NCBI RefSeq assembly: GCF_007681555.1
Contig: NZ_VELE01000006.1
Span: 62,001-126,000, forward strand
Direction of reading: 5' to 3'
From: Kocuria salsicia
GTDB lineage: Bacteria > Actinomycetota > Actinomycetes > Actinomycetales > Micrococcaceae
Length of the DNA: 64,000 nt
Under the pieces are notes generated by a model, which saw nothing but the letters and a program-made list of their open reading frames with translations, ran no database searches and was not told where the DNA came from. Position 1 is the first letter of the stretch. Each line of letters starts with the position of its first letter. This document shows, piece by piece, positions 7,279-63,355 of this stretch. The translations under genes and the position numbers were made by a program.

Positions 7279-7701
7279 TCAGTCCTCCACCACGGTCACG
7301 GTGACCTCGATGTTGCCGCGCGTGGCGTTGGAATAGGGGCAGACCTGGTGCGCGGCGTCCGCGAGCTCCTGGGCCGCGTCGTGCTCGAGTTCGGGGATGA
7401 TCACTTCCAACTGCACGGCCAGGGTGAACCCGCCTGCGCCGTTGTCGCCGATCTGCACGCGGGCACCCACGGCGGAATCACCGAGCGAGACCTTCTGCTG
7501 GCGGGCGACCATCTGCAGGGCGGAGTGGAAGCAGGCCGCGTACCCGGCGGCGAAAAGCTGCTCGGGATTGGCGCCGTCCCCGGATCCCCCCATCTCCTTC
7601 GGCACGGCCAGGTCGAACTGCAGCGACCCGTCCTTGGTGGCGACGCTGCCGTTGCGGCCCGCGCCCTGGGCAAGCGCTTCCGCGGTGTACATAGCGTTCA
7701 T
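7279..7701 (-). CDS. ohr: Organic hydroperoxide resistance protein (Ohr)
   Basis: The 140-residue protein is an Ohr/OsmC-fold thiol peroxidase that reduces organic hydroperoxides to alcohols in the cytoplasm. The two catalytic cysteines are present: C57 in GYAACFHSAL and C121 in HQVCPYSNATRGN. The conserved Glu in the PKEMGGSGDGANPEQLFAAGY stretch is also present. The ATG before NAMYTAE is preceded by GAGGAA; an upstream in-frame start would only add non-conserved residues. A palindrome about 90 bases upstream may be its operator. No ohrR is adjacent; an OhrR-like gene lies 9 kb away. Confidence 0.95.
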   Translation of the reverse strand: MNAMYTAEALAQGAGRNGSVATKDGSLQFDLAVPKEMGGSGDGANPEQLFAAGYAACFHSALQMVARQQKVSLGDSAVGARVQIGDNGAGGFTLAVQLEVIIPELEHDAAQELADAAHQVCPYSNATRGNIEVTVTVVED

Positions 7702-7790
7702 GGTGATTCCTCGTCCTTTCCGTGGCCGGTGAGCCCCGGCACTGAACGCCGGGTGGTGCGACCGCAATCGATGGTAGGTCGCGGTATTTG

Positions 7791-7804
7791 GATTGTCCAC
7801 AATC
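7791..7804. promoter_or_regulatory. Candidate OhrR/MarR operator upstream of ohr
   Basis: Perfect palindrome GATTGT-CC-ACAATC, 90 bases before the ohr start. OhrR operators in other bacteria are AT-rich palindromes of the TACAATT...AATTGTA kind, so this is a plausible peroxide-responsive site. This is inference from symmetry and position only. Confidence 0.5.
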
Positions 7805-7910
7805 TAGACGTGCACTTTTCATGCGGGACGGGCCGGTGAGGGCCACCCGGAATCCCCCTCCCCTGCACCCCACCGCGTGATCCGCACGCCGTTCTCCCTC
7901 GCTCCAAAAT

Positions 7911-7927
7911 TGCCCCCCCGGGGGGCA
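7911..7927. promoter_or_regulatory. CsoR/CstR-like GC palindrome before broken sulfur operon
   Basis: TGCCCCCC-C-GGGGGGCA is a perfect 17-bp palindrome of the type bound by CsoR-family repressors (C-run followed by G-run). It lies 63 bases before a decayed TSUP gene and a decayed rhodanese gene; that gene pair is commonly controlled by the persulfide sensor CstR. It is probably a vestigial operator. Confidence 0.45.
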
Positions 7928-7989
7928 TGTGCTGCAGCGAGCACGGCTCGCTTCGGCACGCACCCCAGGACCGTCATCATCCCGCAGGG

Positions 7990-8318
7990 GTGATCGCGCT
8001 CATCGTCGTCATCGCAGGGCTGCTGGTGGGGCTCGTCATGGGCGCGCTGGGCGGCGGCGGGGCCATCATGACCGTGCCGATGCGCACCTTCGCCCCGGGA
8101 CTCCCCCGACCCACGCAACGGTGGGTTCCCTGGTGGTCGTGATCTCGGGTGCGATTTCGGGCCTGGTCCCGCCCGTCCTCGAACCACGACGACCCCGAGA
8201 ACCGTCCCGCGTGGGCCACCGGATCAACACGCGCCTGCTGTCGTTGGGCTTCGCCGGTCTGCTGGTGCTCACGGGGTGTTACACCGCCCTGCAAAGCGTG
8301 CCCCGGCTCCTGGGCTGA
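7990..8318 (+). pseudogene. TSUP family transporter, frameshifted and internally deleted
   Basis: The frame starting GTG at 7990 reads IALIVVIAGLLVGLVMGALG, the TSUP N-terminus with its glycine-rich loop, then breaks near 8100. The family sequence continues in the +1 frame as THATVGSLVVVISGAISGLV, then jumps straight to a C-terminal helix (LSLGFAGLLVLTGC) before a stop. Intact TSUP proteins are about 250-300 residues, so well over half of the middle is missing. It once probably exported sulfite or related anions together with the following rhodanese. Confidence 0.8.
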
Positions 8319-8385
8319 CCCTGTGACACCCCGCACCCGAGCCGGGCACCGTCCCGTCCGACAGCCACTCGAGAAGGAGAACACC

Positions 8386-8812
8386 ATGTCCTCACCCGCC
8401 ACCGTTTCCGCCTCCGAACTCCAGGACCCCCATGAGGGTGCACCGCTGTTCCTGGACGTCAGGACCCCCGTGGAGTTCGGCATCAGTCACATTCCGGGCT
8501 CCGTCAACGCCCCCTGGCTCTCATCGAGAAGCACACCCGGCAGATCGGGCAGCTACTACCCCGCGTCACCGTGGTGATCTGCCGCTCCGGAGCCCGCTCA
8601 ACGCGCGCCGCGGAGCTGTTGACCTCGGCGGGTATGACGAGCGCAACCGTCCTGACCGGCGGGATCGACGCATGGCGCGACGCCGGACGCGCGGTGCGCA
8701 CCGGTCACGAACGCTGGGATCTGGAACGCCAGGTCCGACTGACCGCCGGGTCCCTGGTACTCGCAGGGATTCTGACGAGCACCGTGGCGCCGCGTGCCAC
8801 ATGGTTCTCCGG
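8386..8812 (+). pseudogene. Rhodanese with DUF2892-like tail, frameshifted and 3'-truncated
   Basis: A good ribosome site (AAGGAG) precedes the ATG of SSPATVSASELQDPHEG, a rhodanese start (FLDVRTPVEFGISHIPGSVN). Near 8513-8521 the frame shifts by one base. In the second frame the catalytic loop is intact (VVICRSGARS, active Cys), followed by GGIDAWRDAG and the LERQVRLTAGSLVLAGIL membrane helix typical of rhodanese/DUF2892 fusions. The helix region ends abruptly near 8812, where sequence of an unrelated acyl-CoA synthetase begins. A deletion fusing the two genes is the simplest explanation. Confidence 0.8.
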
Positions 8813-9752
8813 CGCCGCCGCTGTACCACTGCTTCGGGATGGTGATGGGAAACCTCGCGGCCACGTCCCACGGCAGCGCGATCATCCTGTCGGGGCCGGG
8901 GTTCGACCCGCGGGCCGCGCTGCGCGCCGTCTCCCAGGAGAAGGCCACAAGTGTGTACGGGCTGCCCACCATGTTCATCGCCGAGCTCGAGCTGCCAGAC
9001 TTCGGGGACTACGACCTGTCCTCGCTGCGCAGCGGCGTGATGGCTGGTTCCCCGTGCCCCATGGAGGTCATGCGCAAGGTGATCGACAAGATGCACATGA
9101 GCGAGGTCGCGATCTGCTGCGGCATGACGGAGACCTCGCCGGTGAGCTTCCAGACGCGCGCGGACGACTCGTTGGACCGCTGCGTGGAGACCGTGGGCCG
9201 GGTGCGCCCGCCCGTGGAGGTCAGGATCGTGGATCCCTCCATGGGTGAGACCGTGCCGCGCGGCACGGCCGGGGAGTTCCACACCCGCGGCTACTCGGTC
9301 AGGAGGGCTGCTGAGGTCAGGAGGAGAAGACCCGCGAGACCATCGATTCCGACGGCTGGTTGCACACCGGGGACATCGCCGTGATGGACCAGGACGGCTA
9401 CGCGCGGATCACCGGGCGCATCAAGGACATGGTGATCCGCGGCGGCGAGAACATCTACCCGCGCGAGGTGGAGGAGTTCCTCTGCACCCACCCGGACATC
9501 GTGGACGCCCAGGTGATCGGCGTGCCCAGCGAGAAGTACGGCGAGGAGCTCATGGCCTGGCTGCGGCTGCGCGACGGCGCTCCCGCCCTCACCGCCGAAG
9601 CCATCCTGGAGTTCGCGGACGGGAAGATCTCCCGCCACAAGATCCCCCGCTACGTGCACGTGGTGGACGAGTTCCCCATGACCGTGACCGGCAAGGTCCG
9701 CAAGGTGGAGATGCGCGAGGAAGCGCTGAAGCTCCTGGACCTGGAGCGGTGA
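8813..9752 (+). pseudogene. AMP-binding acyl-CoA synthetase, 5'-truncated and frameshifted
   Basis: The sequence opens in the middle of an acyl-CoA synthetase: [12 protein letters not shown], then [26 protein letters not shown] and the adenylation motif [11 protein letters not shown]. The frame breaks around 9301-9325 and resumes with [40 protein letters not shown] and the C-terminal catalytic lysine region MTVTGKVRKVEMREE. Roughly the first 240 residues, including the P-loop, are missing. It cannot encode an active ligase. The 5' edge coincides with the broken rhodanese. Confidence 0.88.
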
Positions 9753-9834
9753 GAGCACCAGTCGTTCGTTTATAAGTGGAAATGCGTTAGGTCTAACTGC
9801 ACGAACAGTGACCACTGCACTCCAGGAGCACGCC

Positions 9835-10266
9835 ATGACGACCACCGTCGAACGGATCAACATCTCGGCACAGACCGTGCGGGAGGCGCAACCCCCGGCA
9901 CAGCACGGCACGAGCCTGGTTCTTCGCGATGCCGCAGGCCACGATGTAGCCCTCCCGGCGGAGGTTCAGAGAACACTTCTCCGCGCGCTGTCCGCCATCG
10001 CGGAACACGGCTCGGCGAACATCGCCCAGACGCCCGAGGAGCTGACGAGCACCGTGGCCGCCAATCTCCTGGGCGTCTCCCGCCCCACTCTCCTGCGGTG
10101 GGCTCGCGAGGGCATGATCGACTCCTTCAAGGTCGGATCCCATGCCCGGTTCCGCCGCACTGACGTGCTCCGCTTGCGCGAGGAGCGCGAAGCACAGCGG
10201 CGCACGGCCTTCCAGAAGCTGCGGGAGCTGGATGCCGACAACGACTTCGAGTTCTACACAGACTGA
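9835..10266 (+). CDS. Excisionase/HTH-domain protein, antitoxin-like
   Basis: This 143-residue protein has a MerR/excisionase-type winged helix at about residues 70-115 (TVAANLLGVSRPTLLRWAREGMIDSFKVGSHARFRRTDVLRL). The N-terminal region (SLVLRDAAGHDVALPAEVQRTLLRAL) matches the layout of HTH antitoxins that pair with PIN-domain toxins. An AGGAG site fixes the ATG; a GTG 27 bases upstream lacks one. No PIN gene follows: the next 120 bases have no open frame. It may be an orphan antitoxin or a regulator. Confidence 0.75.
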   Translation: MTTTVERINISAQTVREAQPPAQHGTSLVLRDAAGHDVALPAEVQRTLLRALSAIAEHGSANIAQTPEELTSTVAANLLGVSRPTLLRWAREGMIDSFKVGSHARFRRTDVLRLREEREAQRRTAFQKLRELDADNDFEFYTD

Positions 10267-10394
10267 CGACGCCCGCCCACAAGCGGTGGGCACCTTCCCG
10301 AAATGCCCGTGGCCTGCGAGGGCGCAGAGGCGCTGCGCCGCTTCTGGGGATCGACTGCGGCTGACCCGGCCCCGGAGTGCGACGCACGGGGCCC

Positions 10395-11317
10395 TCAGCG
10401 GGCCGGCGGCGTCCAGACCTGGATCTCAGCGGTGTCGTCGTACCAGTGCCCGCCCGGGATGGCCTGCAGCTCGAAGAGCGTTCCCCACGGCGCGCGCACG
10501 TAGACGCTCGCGTTGCCCTCCGTGTCCTCGTGCGGGGAGTTCGGGTGGGGCTCCGAGAGGGCTTCGCCGCCCGCCGCGACAGCCCGGCGCAGGGCGTCGT
10601 CGACGTCGTCCACGAACACCGAGAGGTGGTTCAGCCCCAGGTCGCTGAGCTTCGCGGGGGCCTGCTGCTGGGCCCCTCGACCTGGAACATCTCGATGCTC
10701 GGGCCCGTCCCGATCTGCACCATGCGCTGCCGGGTGATCGCGGCCCCGGACGGCAGCCCCAGCTGCTGCTCGGTCTCCTCGCCCTCGCGCGGCGGATCGC
10801 CGGGTCCCAGGCCGTCGTAGGCGAGCTTCGCGTCGAAGGCCGCGCGCAGGAAATCCGTGGCGGAGTCGATGTCGGGGACGGTCAGCCCCACGTGGTTGCA
10901 CCCGCGGGGCAGGGTCCCGAACCGGTCCTCCCGGGGCCCCAGGGGCAGCACGGCGGACGTCTCGGTGGTCGCGTCACCGATGATCGGGTGGGCCTCGCCC
11001 ACCACCACGAGCGTGGCCCGCTGGTCCAGGAAGTTCGGCTCGTCCGCTGCCACCACGTTCCTGAACGTCTCGGAGCCCATGACCGCGTCGAGCCCCTCGG
11101 GGCTGTCGAACCACAGCTGCGCGGTGCCGTCGAAGTCCGCGGGCGTGACCGAGGAGATGCCCGTGTCCCCCGGGTGGGTCTGCAGGTAGCGCAGGATGTG
11201 CTGGCGCCCCTCCGGAATGGAGCGCATCAGCGCGCCGTGCACCGTCACGTGGTGGTGCACGAACTCCTCGTGGGTGATGCCCGGGGCCTTCTTCAGGGAC
11301 ATGGTCATGGTGATCAT
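10395..11317 (-). pseudogene. EthD-VOC fusion protein, single frameshift
   Basis: The first part (from MITMTMSLKKAPGITHEEFV) is an EthD/DABB-like ferredoxin-fold domain with FVHHHVTVHGALMRSIP, followed by a glyoxalase/VOC domain starting CNHVGLTVPDIDSATDFLRAAF. Near 10675 the frame breaks after MFQVEG. The VOC C-terminal half (LNHLSVFVDDVDDALRRAV to GTLFELQAIPGGHWYDDT) continues in another frame, consistent with one lost base. Intact length would be about 307 residues. It is divergent from a LacI-family gene with an operator between them, suggesting local sugar- or aromatic-linked control. The single lesion could also be a sequencing error. Confidence 0.75.
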
Positions 11318-49767: not shown

Positions 49768-50763
49768 TCAGGCGGCTACCGGTTCGGCGGCGGTTGGTTG
49801 GTTGATCCAGGCGTGGGTGGGTAGCGCGAGGATTTTCGGGTCAGCGGTGGTGGAGAAGCGCTCGGGGTGAGTAGCGCGGGCCGCGGCCAGGGCCGCTGAG
49901 CGCTGCTGACTCACGGTCGCGGCGTGGCCGTAGTGGACGTCGGCGGGGGTGTGCAGCCCGATCCCGGTGTGACGGTGTCCGTGGTTGTAGGTCTCGACGA
50001 AACCGGCCATGAACGCGCGGGCGTCGGCCAGAGACCCGAAGCGGTCCGGGAAGACCGGGGCGTACTTCAAGGTCTTGAACCACGCCTCGGAATACGGGTT
50101 GTCATTGCTCACGCTGGGTCTGGAGTGGGAACGGGTGACGCCGAGGTCGGCCAGCAGCGCGGCCACAGGTTTGGAGGTCATCGAGGTGCCGCGGTCGGCG
50201 TGCACCACGGTGGGCACACCGTGAACCCCGAAGATCTCCTTCATCATCTCCTCGGCCAGAGGCCCGGACTCTCGGGCGTGGACGTGGGCGCCGACGATGT
50301 AGCGGGAGTAGACGTCGAGCATCACGTAGGCGTCGTAGTAGACGCCCTTGGCCGGGCCGGGCAACTTGGTGATGTCCCAGGTGTAGACCTGACCGGATCC
50401 GTCGGCCATCAGCTCAGGGATCGCTCGGGCCGGGTGACGGGCCTGGCGCCGGCGTTCCTTCACCTGCGCGGCGGCTGCGAGGATGCGGTACATGGTGGCG
50501 ATCGAGCACAGGTACACCCCGCGCTCCAGCAGCGTGGCGTAGACCTGGGCCGGGGGCTGGTCGACGAATTCGTCACTGTTGAGCACCTCCAGCACCCGTT
50601 CCCGCTCAACGCGACTGAGCCGGTTGGCCGGCTCCACCGCGGTCCGAGGTCCCGGTGCTGTCCGGGCCCGCCGGCGGGTGGCGGTGGCCCGCGACACCCC
50701 GGTCAGTCCCGCTGCGTCCCGGGTGGTCACGCCTGCGGCGGTGAGCTCGGTGTAGGCGCCCAT
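49768..50763 (-). CDS. IS3-family transposase OrfB, copy 1
   Basis: 331-residue transposase with an N-terminal HTH (LTAAGVTTRDAAGLTGVSRA) and an rve integrase core: D in YTWDITKLPGPAKGVYYDAY, D in VVHADRGTSMTSKP, and E in NDNPYSEAWFKTLKY, the DDE triad. Its ATG shares one base with the orfA stop (TGATG), so it is expressed by stop-start coupling rather than the usual IS3 frameshift. Compared with copy 2 one residue differs noticeably (GSLADARAF here, GSLAAARAF there). Confidence 0.92.
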   Translation of the reverse strand: MGAYTELTAAGVTTRDAAGLTGVSRATATRRRARTAPGPRTAVEPANRLSRVERERVLEVLNSDEFVDQPPAQVYATLLERGVYLCSIATMYRILAAAAQVKERRRQARHPARAIPELMADGSGQVYTWDITKLPGPAKGVYYDAYVMLDVYSRYIVGAHVHARESGPLAEEMMKEIFGVHGVPTVVHADRGTSMTSKPVAALLADLGVTRSHSRPSVSNDNPYSEAWFKTLKYAPVFPDRFGSLADARAFMAGFVETYNHGHRHTGIGLHTPADVHYGHAATVSQQRSAALAAARATHPERFSTTADPKILALPTHAWINQPTAAEPVAA

Positions 50764-59419: not shown

Positions 59420-59493
59420 CCCAGTCACAACATTTTACTTCCCGCGTTTATGGAGCGGCCCAGTGGTTTCCGCCAAAATGAGTCGGAGATGCC

Positions 59494-60480
59494 CTAGGTG
59501 TACTGACCGGACACGTTGATCAAACGTGAGAAAGGCGGCTGGTTCCCGCAGGCCGTGTGGGAACGGTGCTGGTTGTAGTAGTGCAGCCAACCGTCCAGTT
59601 CGCCCCGTCGCTCGGCCTCCGAGGAGTAGCAGCGGGCGTAGGCCCAACCGTCAGCCAGGGTGCGGTGGAACCGCTCGATCTTCCCATTGGTCTGCGGACG
59701 ATACGGACGGGTCCGCTTGTGCTTGATCCCGAGCTCGGCGCAGGTGTCTCGCCACAGGTGAGACCGATAAGCCCCGCCGTTGTCCGAGAGGACCCGCTCG
59801 ACGGTGACGCCTCGCTGGTTGAACCACTCGACAGCTCGTACCAGGACCGCGGTCGCGGTGAGTGCGGTTTCGTCGTCGTGGATCTCGGCGTAGGCGACGC
59901 GGGAGTGGTCGTCGATGACGGTGTGGACGTAGGCCTTGCCCATTAACGGGTCGTAGTGCTTGTTCTTCGGCTTGTCCGGTGTGGCGGCGCGGTTCTTCTC
60001 GCCTTGGCGGCGGCCGACGTAGCGCCAGCCGCTGCCGTCGGGGATGTTGCCTAGTTTCTTCACATCGACGTGGAGCATTGCCCCGGGATGGTCGTGCTCG
60101 TAGCGGCGGACCGGTTCGCCCGTGGCCCGGTCAACATGGGACAGCCGGTTCAGGTGAGCGTCGGTCAGGATCCGATGGACCGTCGACGGCGCGATCCCCA
60201 AGCGACAGGCCAACTGAACTGGCCCCTCTCGGAGGCGGAGACGGAGCTGGATGCAGCGCTTCGTGGTCTTCGCGTTGGTCTTGTTCGGCGAGTGGTGGGG
60301 ACGTGAGGGCCGGTCCTGCATCGACTGGCCGGCACGGTAGCGGTCAGCCCAACGCTTCGCCGTCGGCCACGAGACCTGGAAGCGGGCAGCGACCTCGCTG
60401 ATCGGCCAGCCCTCGTCCACGACGAGACGACCAACGATCAGGCGGTGGCGTGGGGTGAGTGCTGCGTTGGCGTGAGACAT
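59494..60480 (-). CDS. IS481-family transposase
   Basis: The 328-residue transposase has two HTH segments (LTPRHRLIVGRLVVDEGWPI, LGIAPSTVHRILTDAHLNRL) and an rve core: D in GAMLHVDVKKLG, D in RVLSDNGGAYRSH, E in PQTNGKIERFHRTLADGW. Its stop codon TAG lies within CCTAGG, the duplicated target site: the element itself ends two codons earlier, so the gene borrows its stop from the chromosome. The catalytic residues are intact. Confidence 0.95.
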   Translation of the reverse strand: MSHANAALTPRHRLIVGRLVVDEGWPISEVAARFQVSWPTAKRWADRYRAGQSMQDRPSRPHHSPNKTNAKTTKRCIQLRLRLREGPVQLACRLGIAPSTVHRILTDAHLNRLSHVDRATGEPVRRYEHDHPGAMLHVDVKKLGNIPDGSGWRYVGRRQGEKNRAATPDKPKNKHYDPLMGKAYVHTVIDDHSRVAYAEIHDDETALTATAVLVRAVEWFNQRGVTVERVLSDNGGAYRSHLWRDTCAELGIKHKRTRPYRPQTNGKIERFHRTLADGWAYARCYSSEAERRGELDGWLHYYNQHRSHTACGNQPPFSRLINVSGQYT

Positions 60481-60521
60481 GGCATTCCCTTCGGGTGCGC
60501 CACCAGCCCGAAGAGCGCTGA

Positions 60522-61286
60522 TCAGAGGTGCTGGGCGTAGTGGCGCAATGCCTGGGCGGCAAAGTCTGCGGCTGCGGCTCCCCCGAACGCGGGATGGAAG
60601 TCTGGGTTGGTGGTATAGAGGTTGGCCATGCCGGTGAGCATGGCGCGGGTCTTATCGATGTCACCGGCGTGCCCCGGTGTGCCCGGGATCTGGGCGAACC
60701 AGGCTGCGTGGACCGCTGCGTGCTGTTGAGCCTGATCGCTGGACGGGGAGACACCGGATTGGTGGAGCTCGCCCCACTGGGTCAGGAGTTGCTCGGCATC
60801 GGCTTGAAATTGGCGTTGCTGGGTGAGGTTCTTGGCATGCCACCACCGATTGGACTGCTCGAACACGTCGCGGCCCCACTGCTCGGTGACCTCCGCCTCG
60901 TACCGGTCATTGAAGCCTTCGAGCATCATGTCCATCCGCGGTTGCCGTCCCTCGCGTCTCATCGCCAGAGTGTGCTCGACAGAAGCGATGCGAAGTCCCA
61001 GCGCTTCCTGCTCATGCTCGAGGTGTGCCAGGTGCCCCTCGAGTGCGTTGATCTCGTCATCCGGGTTCGCGCCGGAGGCCAGTGCCTCGCTGATGGCAGC
61101 GAGGCTCAGCCCAGCTTCACGCAGGAGCAGAATCCGTTGCAGGCGTGCCACAGCGGTGGGGCCGTAGTAGCGGTAGCCGTTCGCGCCGATCCGGTCCGGG
61201 GTCAGCAACCCGATCTGGTGGTAATGGCGCAGCGTCCGGCCGCTCACACCGGCGCGATCAGCGAGTTCTTGGACAGTCCACTCCAC
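60522..61286 (-). CDS. MerR family regulator with TipAS domain (IS passenger)
   Basis: The 254-residue protein has a MerR winged helix (VQELADRAGVSGRTLRHYHQ, LTPDRIGANGYRYYGPTAVA), a coiled coil, and a C-terminal TipAS-like domain (EVTEQWGRDVFEQSNRWWHA, MLTGMANLYTTNPDFHPAFG) that binds peptide antibiotics in TipA. AGGAGG nine bases before GTG at 61286 sets the start; GTG at 61292 is an alternative. It follows the protease-like gene by 16 bases, downstream of a MerR-type promoter, so it is likely autoactivating. Confidence 0.9.
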   Translation of the reverse strand: MEWTVQELADRAGVSGRTLRHYHQIGLLTPDRIGANGYRYYGPTAVARLQRILLLREAGLSLAAISEALASGANPDDEINALEGHLAHLEHEQEALGLRIASVEHTLAMRREGRQPRMDMMLEGFNDRYEAEVTEQWGRDVFEQSNRWWHAKNLTQQRQFQADAEQLLTQWGELHQSGVSPSSDQAQQHAAVHAAWFAQIPGTPGHAGDIDKTRAMLTGMANLYTTNPDFHPAFGGAAAADFAAQALRHYAQHL

Positions 61287-61302
61287 GAGCACGGCCCTCC
61301 TG

Positions 61303-62208
61303 TTAGCGAGTTGGCATCCCCAGACCCAACTGGGACAGGGATACCGCCAGGATCTCTTCGGCCGGCGTGGTCACCGCCGCCGCGGCCGGCTGCCCAGTGG
61401 CATCCAGGTAGGCCGTGACGATCCGGGCTCCCGCCGCGTACCCGGCCCCGGTGGGAAGACCGACCGGTGTCGCGCCGAACAGGCGAGCACTCGCGTCGCC
61501 CAACACCCACGCTGCGAAGTCCTGCATTCCGGTCACGGCGAGTCCCTCACCGACGCGGTGCAGCACCGCGTTGCTGGTGCGGGTCTCCTGGCTGACGAAG
61601 TGTGTGAACCCCTGCTCGCCCACAAGGCCCACCGCGAAGAGGTCCGCGAGACCTTCAGCGACCACATGTTCCCCGACCGTGACCGTCTGCGGCTCCCACA
61701 CCACACCGCCTGGCGAGTAGCGCACATTGTGATGCAACTCGTGCAGGGCAATGCCTTCCAGGCGATCCAGGACCTCCTTGGTCGGCCAGACAGTGATGGC
61801 GATGTAGCCGCTGATCCCGCCGAAGGCCGACAAGCCGCGGATTTCATCCATAAAGTGCCTGTTCGTGGGATCACCAAGCACGAGCAGTACCTTGAGGTCG
61901 GGCACCGTCAGTGTCGGATTCGCCGATGCGAGCTCTCGAAGCCCCATATCGAGCGCTCGCTCGATACGGCCCCACGCATCGGCTCGCTCCAGATCGTCGA
62001 TCGCACCCAGGATCTCGTCGTTGGCGGCATCGGGCCCGAACCCGAAATTCTGAGTATGGACTGCGGCTAAGTCCGGCCCACCAGGGATGAAGAAGTACAT
62101 CCCAGCCATCGGCTGCCAGAGTCTGCGAGCTGCGTCCTGCCAGTCCTCGGGGGAGCTGCTCACCATCGCCCGCATCCGGGCTGGACTGTCGATCATCGTC
62201 ACGGTCAT
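61303..62208 (-). CDS. DUF2268-type putative zinc protease (IS passenger)
   Basis: The 301-residue protein contains GIALHELHHNVRYSPGGVVW, an HExxH-type zinc site, in the setting of the DUF2268 (putative Zn-dependent protease) family, and EHVVAEGLADLFAVGLVGEQ, which supplies a likely third ligand Glu. No signal peptide is seen, so it acts in the cytoplasm. The ATG at 62208 follows the promoter; there is no clear ribosome site. It is co-directional with the MerR gene and transposase inside the IS481 element. Substrate unknown. Confidence 0.8.
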   Translation of the reverse strand: MTVTMIDSPARMRAMVSSSPEDWQDAARRLWQPMAGMYFFIPGGPDLAAVHTQNFGFGPDAANDEILGAIDDLERADAWGRIERALDMGLRELASANPTLTVPDLKVLLVLGDPTNRHFMDEIRGLSAFGGISGYIAITVWPTKEVLDRLEGIALHELHHNVRYSPGGVVWEPQTVTVGEHVVAEGLADLFAVGLVGEQGFTHFVSQETRTSNAVLHRVGEGLAVTGMQDFAAWVLGDASARLFGATPVGLPTGAGYAAGARIVTAYLDATGQPAAAAVTTPAEEILAVSLSQLGLGMPTR

Positions 62209-62215
62209 GCCAGCA

Positions 62216-62246
62216 ACGCTAAACATTGCCGTTGCGTCAAGGTCAA
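62216..62246 (-). promoter_or_regulatory. MerR-type promoter with 19-bp spacer
   Basis: On the minus strand TTGACC (-35), a 19-bp spacer and TAGCGT (-10). The spacer contains TTGACGCAACGGCAA, a palindrome with one mismatch. Overlong spacers with a palindrome are the hallmark of MerR-activated promoters, so the TipAS-type regulator probably acts here. Confidence 0.75.
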
Positions 62247-62281
62247 CCCAGAACGTCAATCAATGTGCCCGGTCAGTACAC

Positions 62282-63355
62282 CTAGGAGATGTTCTCGTCC
62301 ACCACGTAGATTCGCTTCAGTGGCAGCTTGTCCCGCCACGTGGCGGGGAGTGACTCGTAGTAGGTCAGCGTAAGGTCCGTGATTTCCTTCCCGCCCAGCA
62401 ACCGGAGGTTGTGGCGTTCACGTTCCAGTGCGGCCGCCTCGCTGCTGTACGAGCCCAGGGTCACGAACAAGCCATGTTCGTCTTTGGCTCCCAGCGTCCC
62501 CAGGAGGCCTTGAATATCGGGGCGCCCTTTGGTGGAGGCGGTGTGTTTGCATTGAACCTTGATGAGGGGCGGTTCAAGACCGAGGACGTCCCTGTGAGCG
62601 AGCACGTCTACGCCCCCGTCCGCCGTGTAGGTGGTGACGCGCGCTTGATAGCCCATGGCCCTCAGGAGATCAGCCACGAAGTTCTCGAACTCTTGATGCG
62701 TAAGGTCCTCCAGGAGGGTCCGCGTGATGAAGTCGTTGGTGTTGTCCTCGATCTGCTTCGCAGTCGGTAGCGCATCGTGCCCGTCCTCTTCCAGATTGGC
62801 CGGGGAGGCCATTTCCTCAAGAGGGGCCGGCAGCCCCGCTGGGACAGAGGAGGTCCTTTCGCCGGTCTGCAGCGACGCTACGAAGGCGTCTTCGGAAGGC
62901 GCGTTTAAGAACTCCTGAAAGAGACCCGCATGGCGTTTCACTTGGAACAGCGTGAGTGCTGATCCAATCTCATAGAGGGCCGACTTCGGAAAGATCCCGC
63001 GGGGGACACCAGTCTTGAGCCACCGCACGGCACGTCTGTGCTTATGGGTTCGCTCTCCGGCGTGGTACCGGTACTGCCCTGTGACCTCACCAAAGTTCAA
63101 CGTCCGATCCGTCTTGCTGGGAAAGATCACGATGTCCCCCTCGGCCATCTCGAAGGCGAAACGCCGCTGAATCCCCGCCCAAACAGCGATGGCCCCCTGC
63201 TTGGCACTGGGTTCACTGGCAACAAGGGCCGCCTTGATGCGCTCGGGGTTGTCGCCCAGGTGAGAGATATCCCCGATCTCCCATCCGATCGAGACAAACC
63301 CTTCGGAGAGCAGCTCCTCAGCGAGAACGTCGTTGTGGATACCCCACATTGTCAT
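62282..63355 (-). CDS. Mrr-type endonuclease with N-terminal PUA/EVE-like domain
   Basis: The 357-residue protein has an N-terminal region (GDIVIFPSKTDRTLNFGEV, then AVRWLKTGVPRGIFPKSALY) that resembles PUA/EVE-like readers of modified DNA, and a C-terminal Mrr nuclease: FENFVADLLRAMGYQARVTT, D in ADGGVDVLAHRD, and Q-x-K in IKVQCKHTASTKGRPDI. This would suit cutting of modified DNA. Its stop TAG is within the CCTAGG copy at the IS481 edge, so the insertion left the protein intact. The ATG overlaps the helicase stop (ATGA). Confidence 0.88.
   Translation of the reverse strand: MTMWGIHNDVLAEELLSEGFVSIGWEIGDISHLGDNPERIKAALVASEPSAKQGAIAVWAGIQRRFAFEMAEGDIVIFPSKTDRTLNFGEVTGQYRYHAGERTHKHRRAVRWLKTGVPRGIFPKSALYEIGSALTLFQVKRHAGLFQEFLNAPSEDAFVASLQTGERTSSVPAGLPAPLEEMASPANLEEDGHDALPTAKQIEDNTNDFITRTLLEDLTHQEFENFVADLLRAMGYQARVTTYTADGGVDVLAHRDVLGLEPPLIKVQCKHTASTKGRPDIQGLLGTLGAKDEHGLFVTLGSYSSEAAALERERHNLRLLGGKEITDLTLTYYESLPATWRDKLPLKRIYVVDENIS

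Follow-up and report, generated by a model that had tools for sequence, protein, structure and literature searches.

The 64,000-nucleotide stretch of Kocuria salsicia DNA analysed here (contig NZ_VELE01000006.1, positions 62,001 to 126,000; hereafter the window) carries at 59499-62280 a complete insertion sequence (IS) of the IS481 type, 2782 bp long, with two passenger genes beside its transposase. Its left, transposase-side end TGTACTGACCGGACACGTTGA (59499-59519, plus strand) and the inverted partner TGTACTGACCGGGCACATTGA at its right, cargo-side end (62280-62260, minus strand) are identical at 19 of 21 positions, or at 18 of the first 20, and the repeats start with TGT as is usual in the IS481 family. 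CCTAGG lies on either side of the element, at 59493-59498 and 62281-62286, a target duplication of the NCTAGN type; the left copy supplies the transposase stop codon, CTA at 59494-59496 being its minus-strand TAG, a feature also seen in TnRErm46. All three genes are read from the minus strand, in the order DUF2268 metalloprotease, MerR/TipAS regulator and transposase, with a gap of 41 bp between the last two. Chance repeats were ruled out as an explanation of the ends, as the inverted-repeat pattern TGTACTGACCGGNNACNTTG, when reversed, gave no match in 27 genomes of the genus and 396 of the order (overlapping sets). Re-examination of the sequence confirmed the inverted ends, the CCTAGG duplication and the intact transposase described in the initial annotation, and Pfam confirmed that a MerR/TipAS regulator and an HExxH protein lie as passengers between the ends.

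The transposase (59494-60480, minus strand, 328 aa) scores 340.6 bits against NF033577, the IS481 family transposase model (cut-off 224), and matches Pfam rve and rve_3; D233 and E269 are separated by 35 residues, which we take to be an intact D-35-E motif. The regulator (60522-61292, minus strand, 256 aa) has the TipA-class architecture, a MerR helix-turn-helix (MerR_1, 9.7e-19) followed by a C-terminal TipAS domain (4.1e-18). It matches the profile of SkgA (7cla) along its whole length (7.7e-41), TipAS structures match its C-terminal part, its predicted structure reaches a predicted template modelling score (pTM) of 0.50, and it contains no cysteine. The open reading frame (ORF) of the second passenger extends over 61303-62259, where it is open to a TTG. 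Homologues support an ATG start at 62208, so the gene is probably 61303-62208 (minus strand, 301 aa), shorter than the open frame. Like other predicted zinc proteases of the DUF2268 family (PF10026; 7.4e-31), the protein joins HExxH to a conserved distal glutamate, and H156, E157, H160 and E185 do not vary in any of the 40 aligned homologues; from this pattern E185 would be the third metal ligand, and zinc hydrolase chemistry is what the family would lead one to expect. Its structure was predicted with high confidence (predicted local distance difference test, pLDDT, 94.4); among solved folds it comes closest to the M61 and M1 aminopeptidases, as weak matches (Foldseek, best E 0.0041). A sequence search of solved structures returned two rows only, at E 0.29 and 0.43, and Foldseek gave no match to viral models at E <= 0.001. 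An anti-phage role of the passengers was also considered and set aside, PADLOC at E <= 0.001 giving nothing for DUF2268 and, for the regulator, mad1 only, over residues 5-53.

By sequence comparison, the element at 59499-62280 is one insertion. A relative of the same genus (G008) retains the empty site, ...GATGCCCTAGG|AGATGTTCTCGTCCAC..., in which the left flank is followed by a single CCTAGG and then by the 16 bases that open the right flank. The left flank of this relative is 95.7% identical to that of the window up to and including CCTAGG, and the sequences diverge after the 16 right-flank bases, so that on its right side the empty site is defined by these bases; in another relative (G026) the right-flank homology begins inside the target sequence. 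A remnant of a second IS481 is ruled out by this empty site as the source of the right inverted repeat, and is not needed. Neither passenger was matched by tblastn (E <= 1e-3) in the loci of five relatives fetched at this site; in one of them, G024, tblastn finds a transposase of 38% identity. The two findings that could have overturned the initial proposal of a single passenger-bearing unit, namely passengers resident at this locus without the IS and a right repeat left by another element, were thus not encountered.

The same unit recurs elsewhere. A DNA search of 27, 395 and 396 genomes (overlapping sets), a contig scan (21 loci) and plasmid records yielded eight copies that run from inverted repeat to inverted repeat with transposase, MerR and DUF2268 genes, at six sites: the window, a Kocuria rhizophila plasmid (noisy assembly), three Dermabacteraceae, Candidatus Avipropionibacterium, Microbacterium sp. 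69-10 and genome G707. Three more, in Brevibacterium luteolum, in G569 and in a Rhodococcus metagenome-assembled genome, are cut by contig ends. All seven other DUF2268 elements align to the window element over its full length, except that the L021 alignment begins at position 5. The Dermabacteraceae copies share one site, with flanks 95-97% alike. Between the Avipropionibacterium copy and that of Microbacterium, identity is 98.6% in an alignment of 2803 columns, and their flanks show no similarity. Among the pairs compared, the window flanks have no similarity to those of L087, L073, L070 and L021, nor has the cargo-side flank of L073 to that of L074. Recurrence of the full unit at different sites was the check named with the initial proposal, and its outcome, together with the empty site, bears that proposal out. 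The name transporter IS (tIS) is used for an IS that encloses passenger genes between its ends (PMC9330008), and passengers that lie between the ends and are shared by whole-unit copies at other sites agree with this definition. In one locus a WYL element and a DUF2268 element abut with only TCTAGG between their ends (L083:2923-2930), so the duplicated CTAG of one element may be the target for the next.

The cargo of the window is one of many on the same chassis. The end pattern is present in 11 of the 27 genus and 23 of the 396 order genomes, and the loci fetched yielded 42 cargo-bearing elements, 1.9-5.9 kb long (47 rows less five nested doubles, with seven inverted-repeat places at contig ends kept outside the set) against a single bare one, of 1112 bp, whose transposase is 68% identical to that of the window. 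Identical 6-bp duplications flank 24 of the 42, and 23 of these are NCTAGN. A cargo other than DUF2268 is present in 34 of the 42, and a recognisable DNA-binding regulator is found in 31 of those 34, called by Pfam directly in 21 and by similarity to these in 10. The families are TetR, WYL, AraC/GlxA, HxlR, LysR, MarR, Rrf2, XRE-cupin, MerR and, in three related elements, a MazE-antitoxin type that we label AbrB-like; of the remaining three elements, L131 has a broken AraC-like piece, and no regulator was called in L119 and L142. Partners with Pfam matches include EamA, alpha/beta hydrolases, zinc alcohol dehydrogenase-like proteins, cupin, NAD-binding proteins, SDR, ABC transporters, DUF2938, MDMPI and DUF1348, and the labels VOC and DoxX come from sequence reading, with no Pfam match at 1e-5. 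A Schlafen AlbA_2 protein (L142:1703-2935) and an AAA_15 ATPase (L079:3668-5656) were also seen inside sister elements.

When these 34 elements are compared with the window, the transposase-side match starts at oriented position 1792-1813 in 33 of them, the transposase ATG lying at 1801; in L110 that match is in pieces, and the exception, L107, has a cut transposase and starts at 2367. A far-end match of 26-44 bp is reported in five of the 34. Since homology between different cargos begins at the transposase start codon, the transposase reading frame and the ends appear as a chassis and what lies between as an interchangeable cassette. In a transposase tree of 39 of the 42 elements, the nearest neighbour of the window by path and by identity (93%) carries LysR and EamA; elements with DUF2268 cargo are found in each of the two main groups of the tree.

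The assumption of the initial annotation that IS481 members normally encode only a transposase therefore fails for this subgroup, given the 42 cargo-bearing elements against one bare and two published cases. ISArsp12, an IS481-family element of the Arthrobacter plasmid pA2H1, has two passengers, an ArsR regulator and a permease (PMC6305408), and ISPfr21 of Propionibacterium freudenreichii, to which it is reported to be 86% identical (PMC6305408), carries its transposase, a TetR regulator and a second protein (PMC2909200). ISArsp12 resembles the window element in its inverted repeat TGTACTGACCGGACACGTTG, which is identical to our left end, in its NCTAGN duplication (CCTAGA) and in its pairing of a regulator with a second gene; the transposase of the pA2H1 record (L159) is 91.5% identical to ours, whereas the cargos differ, ArsR and permease there and MerR/TipAS and DUF2268 here. 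ISPfr21, compared by its description, is likewise similar in having a regulator plus a second gene and different in cargo. A more distant parallel is TnRErm46 of Rhodococcus equi, with an IS481 transposase, NCTAGN, a repeat TAG used as stop and passengers that include a TetR regulator; unlike our element it is 6.9 kb long, has another inverted repeat and carries erm(46) (PMC6794481). The window regulator, with its MerR DNA-binding part and TipAS domain, is of the TipA/SkgA class, for which autoregulation is the principle described (PMC7762955), yet it differs from that class in having no cysteine and in standing behind a DUF2268 protease gene. A passenger-bearing IS481 is thus already published, and the MerR/TipAS-DUF2268 cargo is a variant of it. 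No paper naming both TipAS and DUF2268 came up in a literature search, and the titles and abstract starts of the papers listed revealed no survey of regulator cassettes in IS481, although the IS review cited in PMC6794481 or ISfinder may contain one.

Upstream of the DUF2268 gene lies a MerR-type promoter (62216-62246, minus strand) with -35 TTGACC (62246-62241), a 19-bp spacer and -10 TAGCGT (62221-62216), followed by the ATG at 62208; the cassette transcript is probably leaderless, the ATG being only 7 bp past the -10. The arrangement is conserved: 44 of 51 distinct DUF2268 upstream regions (those sharing the next 200 nt merged, those too near the locus start skipped) have TTGAC[CT], in one case TGGACC, then exactly 19 bp, TANNNT and an ATG 7 or 8 bp on. 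Spacers of 17 or 18 bp occur in none of the 51, and mononucleotide shuffles produced the 19-bp pattern in a mean of 0.135 regions of 51, with a maximum of 3. Several DUF2268 homologues in which no neighbouring MerR gene was detected retain the same promoter. The spacer holds a predicted operator, the dyad TTGACGCAACGGCAA (62226-62240, minus strand; consensus TTGACGnnnCGTCAA), whose positions are paired in 84% of cells across homologues. Its outermost pair co-varies from T-A to C-G in 41 of 44, where shuffling gives 27.9, and for the third pair the figures are 40 and 34.2, relatedness not being removed in either comparison. Promoters regulated by MerR proteins have spacers of 19-20 bp (PMC9909328), and a dyad within a spacer of that length is as expected for the TipA class; the MerR/TipAS protein would bind there. 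The self-regulated MerR promoter with a 19-bp spacer suggested in the initial annotation is supported by this conservation.

The origin of the cargo was addressed with a tree of 48 DUF2268 proteins, in which named records duplicating genome-search loci had been merged. Nine are IS-borne, three have an end remnant and no transposase, and 36 have neither under the mismatch limit used; partial look-alikes of the end upstream of L026 and L077 mean that the count of three may be too low. The three remnants (L075, L078 and L103) stand 71-72 bp from the DUF2268 ATG, against 72 bp in the window, no transposase was matched in these loci, and they are apparently settled former elements. The window protein falls in an IS-borne clade of eight (support 100/96) and that of G707 is placed elsewhere. 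A single clade of all nine IS-borne rows is rejected (p-AU 0.00015); the MerR/TipAS-DUF2268 pair is therefore probably an old chromosomal operon that was taken up at least twice or was repeatedly lost from elements.

Taken as a whole, we consider it likely that the element is a transporter-type IS481 with an exchangeable cassette, here an inducible DUF2268-MerR/TipAS operon. The chassis would consist of the transposase reading frame, which extends from the start codon as far as the left end, and about 21-27 bp of the right end; it would insert at CTAG and duplicate 6 bp, the target providing the transposase stop codon. Between the start codon and the right end would lie the exchangeable cassette, here the probably leaderless operon. 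A dimer of MerR/TipAS may occupy the dyad in the over-long 19-bp spacer, and inducer binding would twist the promoter into register and raise both metalloprotease and regulator; such activation by DNA distortion is what is known of the family. The protease might then destroy, or extra TipAS domain might sequester, the inducing toxic compound, probably a peptide-like one. That the cassette protects against a peptide antibiotic is, as a hypothesis, rather doubtful. More broadly, and with the balance falling just short of even, this IS481 subgroup may be a dedicated shuttle for self-regulated cassettes fitted up to the transposase start codon, with the cassette giving the transposase its expression signals; MerR/TipAS-DUF2268, taken up at least twice, would then act against peptide-like toxins as a peptidase module that is both mobile and inducible.

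Those parts of the transporter reading that rest on sequence are demonstrated at that level: the unit, its ends, the target duplication, the empty site, the recurrence, the promoter conservation and the different cargos on one chassis. Several observations weigh against it. Movement is a reading from sequence comparisons. A clean 6-bp duplication is present in only two of the eight complete copies, the window (CCTAGG/CCTAGG) and the Microbacterium copy L087 (CCTAGA/CCTAGA); L073 has CCTAGG/GCTAGC (4 of 6), the three Dermabacteraceae copies agree at 5 of 6, and L084 and L021 (noisy assembly) have none. The host families of the 98.6% identical pair belong to different orders, an assignment that depends on binning because both records are metagenome-assembled genomes. 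The control in which 0 of 20 flanking proteins had a regulator domain speaks for the cassette reading, but its rate is not like-for-like with that of the elements, since the rows (20 of 69) were hand-picked and one long ORF was taken per flank against several per element, which is biased against short regulator genes. Seven of the 51 upstream regions misfit the promoter; these include the Kocuria copy from the noisy assembly, two rows that lack a start codon where one would be expected, and a gene that is incomplete. Of the six pairs in the dyad, four score no better than shuffles. On the functional side, the DUF2268 model matched no solved fold at E <= 0.001 in Foldseek. TipAS binds thiopeptides covalently via a cysteine (PMC7762955); this route is absent here because the regulator has none, and TipA-like covalent thiopeptide capture was rejected.

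Other explanations differ in which part of this reading they replace. The passengers could be ordinary chromosomal genes beside a landed IS481, the right repeat being a remnant of a second one; the 36 of 48 DUF2268 rows without an element, many with an adjacent MerR/TipAS gene, fit such a history, as does L077, where an element has landed separately next to a DUF2268 gene of the chromosome. For the window copy, however, it is refuted by the empty site in G008, and the lack of passenger matches in the five relatives' loci and the recurrence of the unit with both ends at other sites leave it extremely improbable. The L077 element (7400-11026) has a TCTAAT duplication, which is not CTAG, and lies about 490 bp from the chromosomal DUF2268 start codon.

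A transporter IS481 need not carry drug protection. The cassette may instead control the breakdown of one of the cell's own proteins or signals during stress and be under selection as a general stress module, and we regard this as a real possibility without favouring it: the gene family is widespread and diverse outside elements, its catalytic residues are conserved, and the cargos of the sister elements examined are a mixture of enzymes and transporters with no classic resistance gene among their Pfam matches. Against this, TipA-class regulators have been described as minimal multidrug-resistance systems (PMC7762955), and mobility suggests a benefit across hosts. It is also conceivable, if unlikely, that cargo and transposase form one transcription unit and that the inducer also triggers transposition, a drug-triggered movement. 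The three genes share a strand, only 41 bp separate the MerR gene from the transposase, and different cargos have no transposase upstream region in common, so that the signals for transposase expression have to be supplied by the cargo or the end; on the other hand, a strong hairpin before the transposase of several sister elements could insulate it. These hairpins differ in sequence, stand just before the transposase start codon and are possibly terminators. The corresponding RNA fold of the window is no more stable than shuffles (z 0.89).

Under the transporter reading, the single reports of ISPfr21 and ISArsp12 become a pattern, one IS lineage with small, mostly ready-regulated modules in more than one actinobacterial family. 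That the cassettes reach just to the transposase start codon turns cargo capture into a precise, testable question, and the conserved operator offers a handle on what DUF2268 proteases respond to and act on.

Beyond the element, the flanking Mrr-like restriction endonuclease gene (62282-63355, minus strand; Pfam Mrr_cat, PADLOC PDC-S02) has its TAG stop codon inside the right target duplication, and at 49945-50409 a weak second transposase match (26.7% identity) is perhaps another transposase-like gene. Among the cargo-bearing elements, 36 of 42 have TAG at the transposase-side end with the last 20 codons open; four of these 36 (L079, L118, L138 and L157) have other DNA between transposase and end. 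The extra gene there is of the abortive-infection family HEPN_AbiV in L118 (4973-5713) and L157 (5224-5964), both by Pfam, and in L079 (127-828), by similarity. At the opposite end, the outermost regulator gene of L104 (4810-5784), L121 (3512-4537) and L119 (14891-15520) runs into the inverted repeat, with a C-terminus ...NVSGQY, towards the target TAG, mirroring the transposase at its own end, so that in these elements the target would end two genes.

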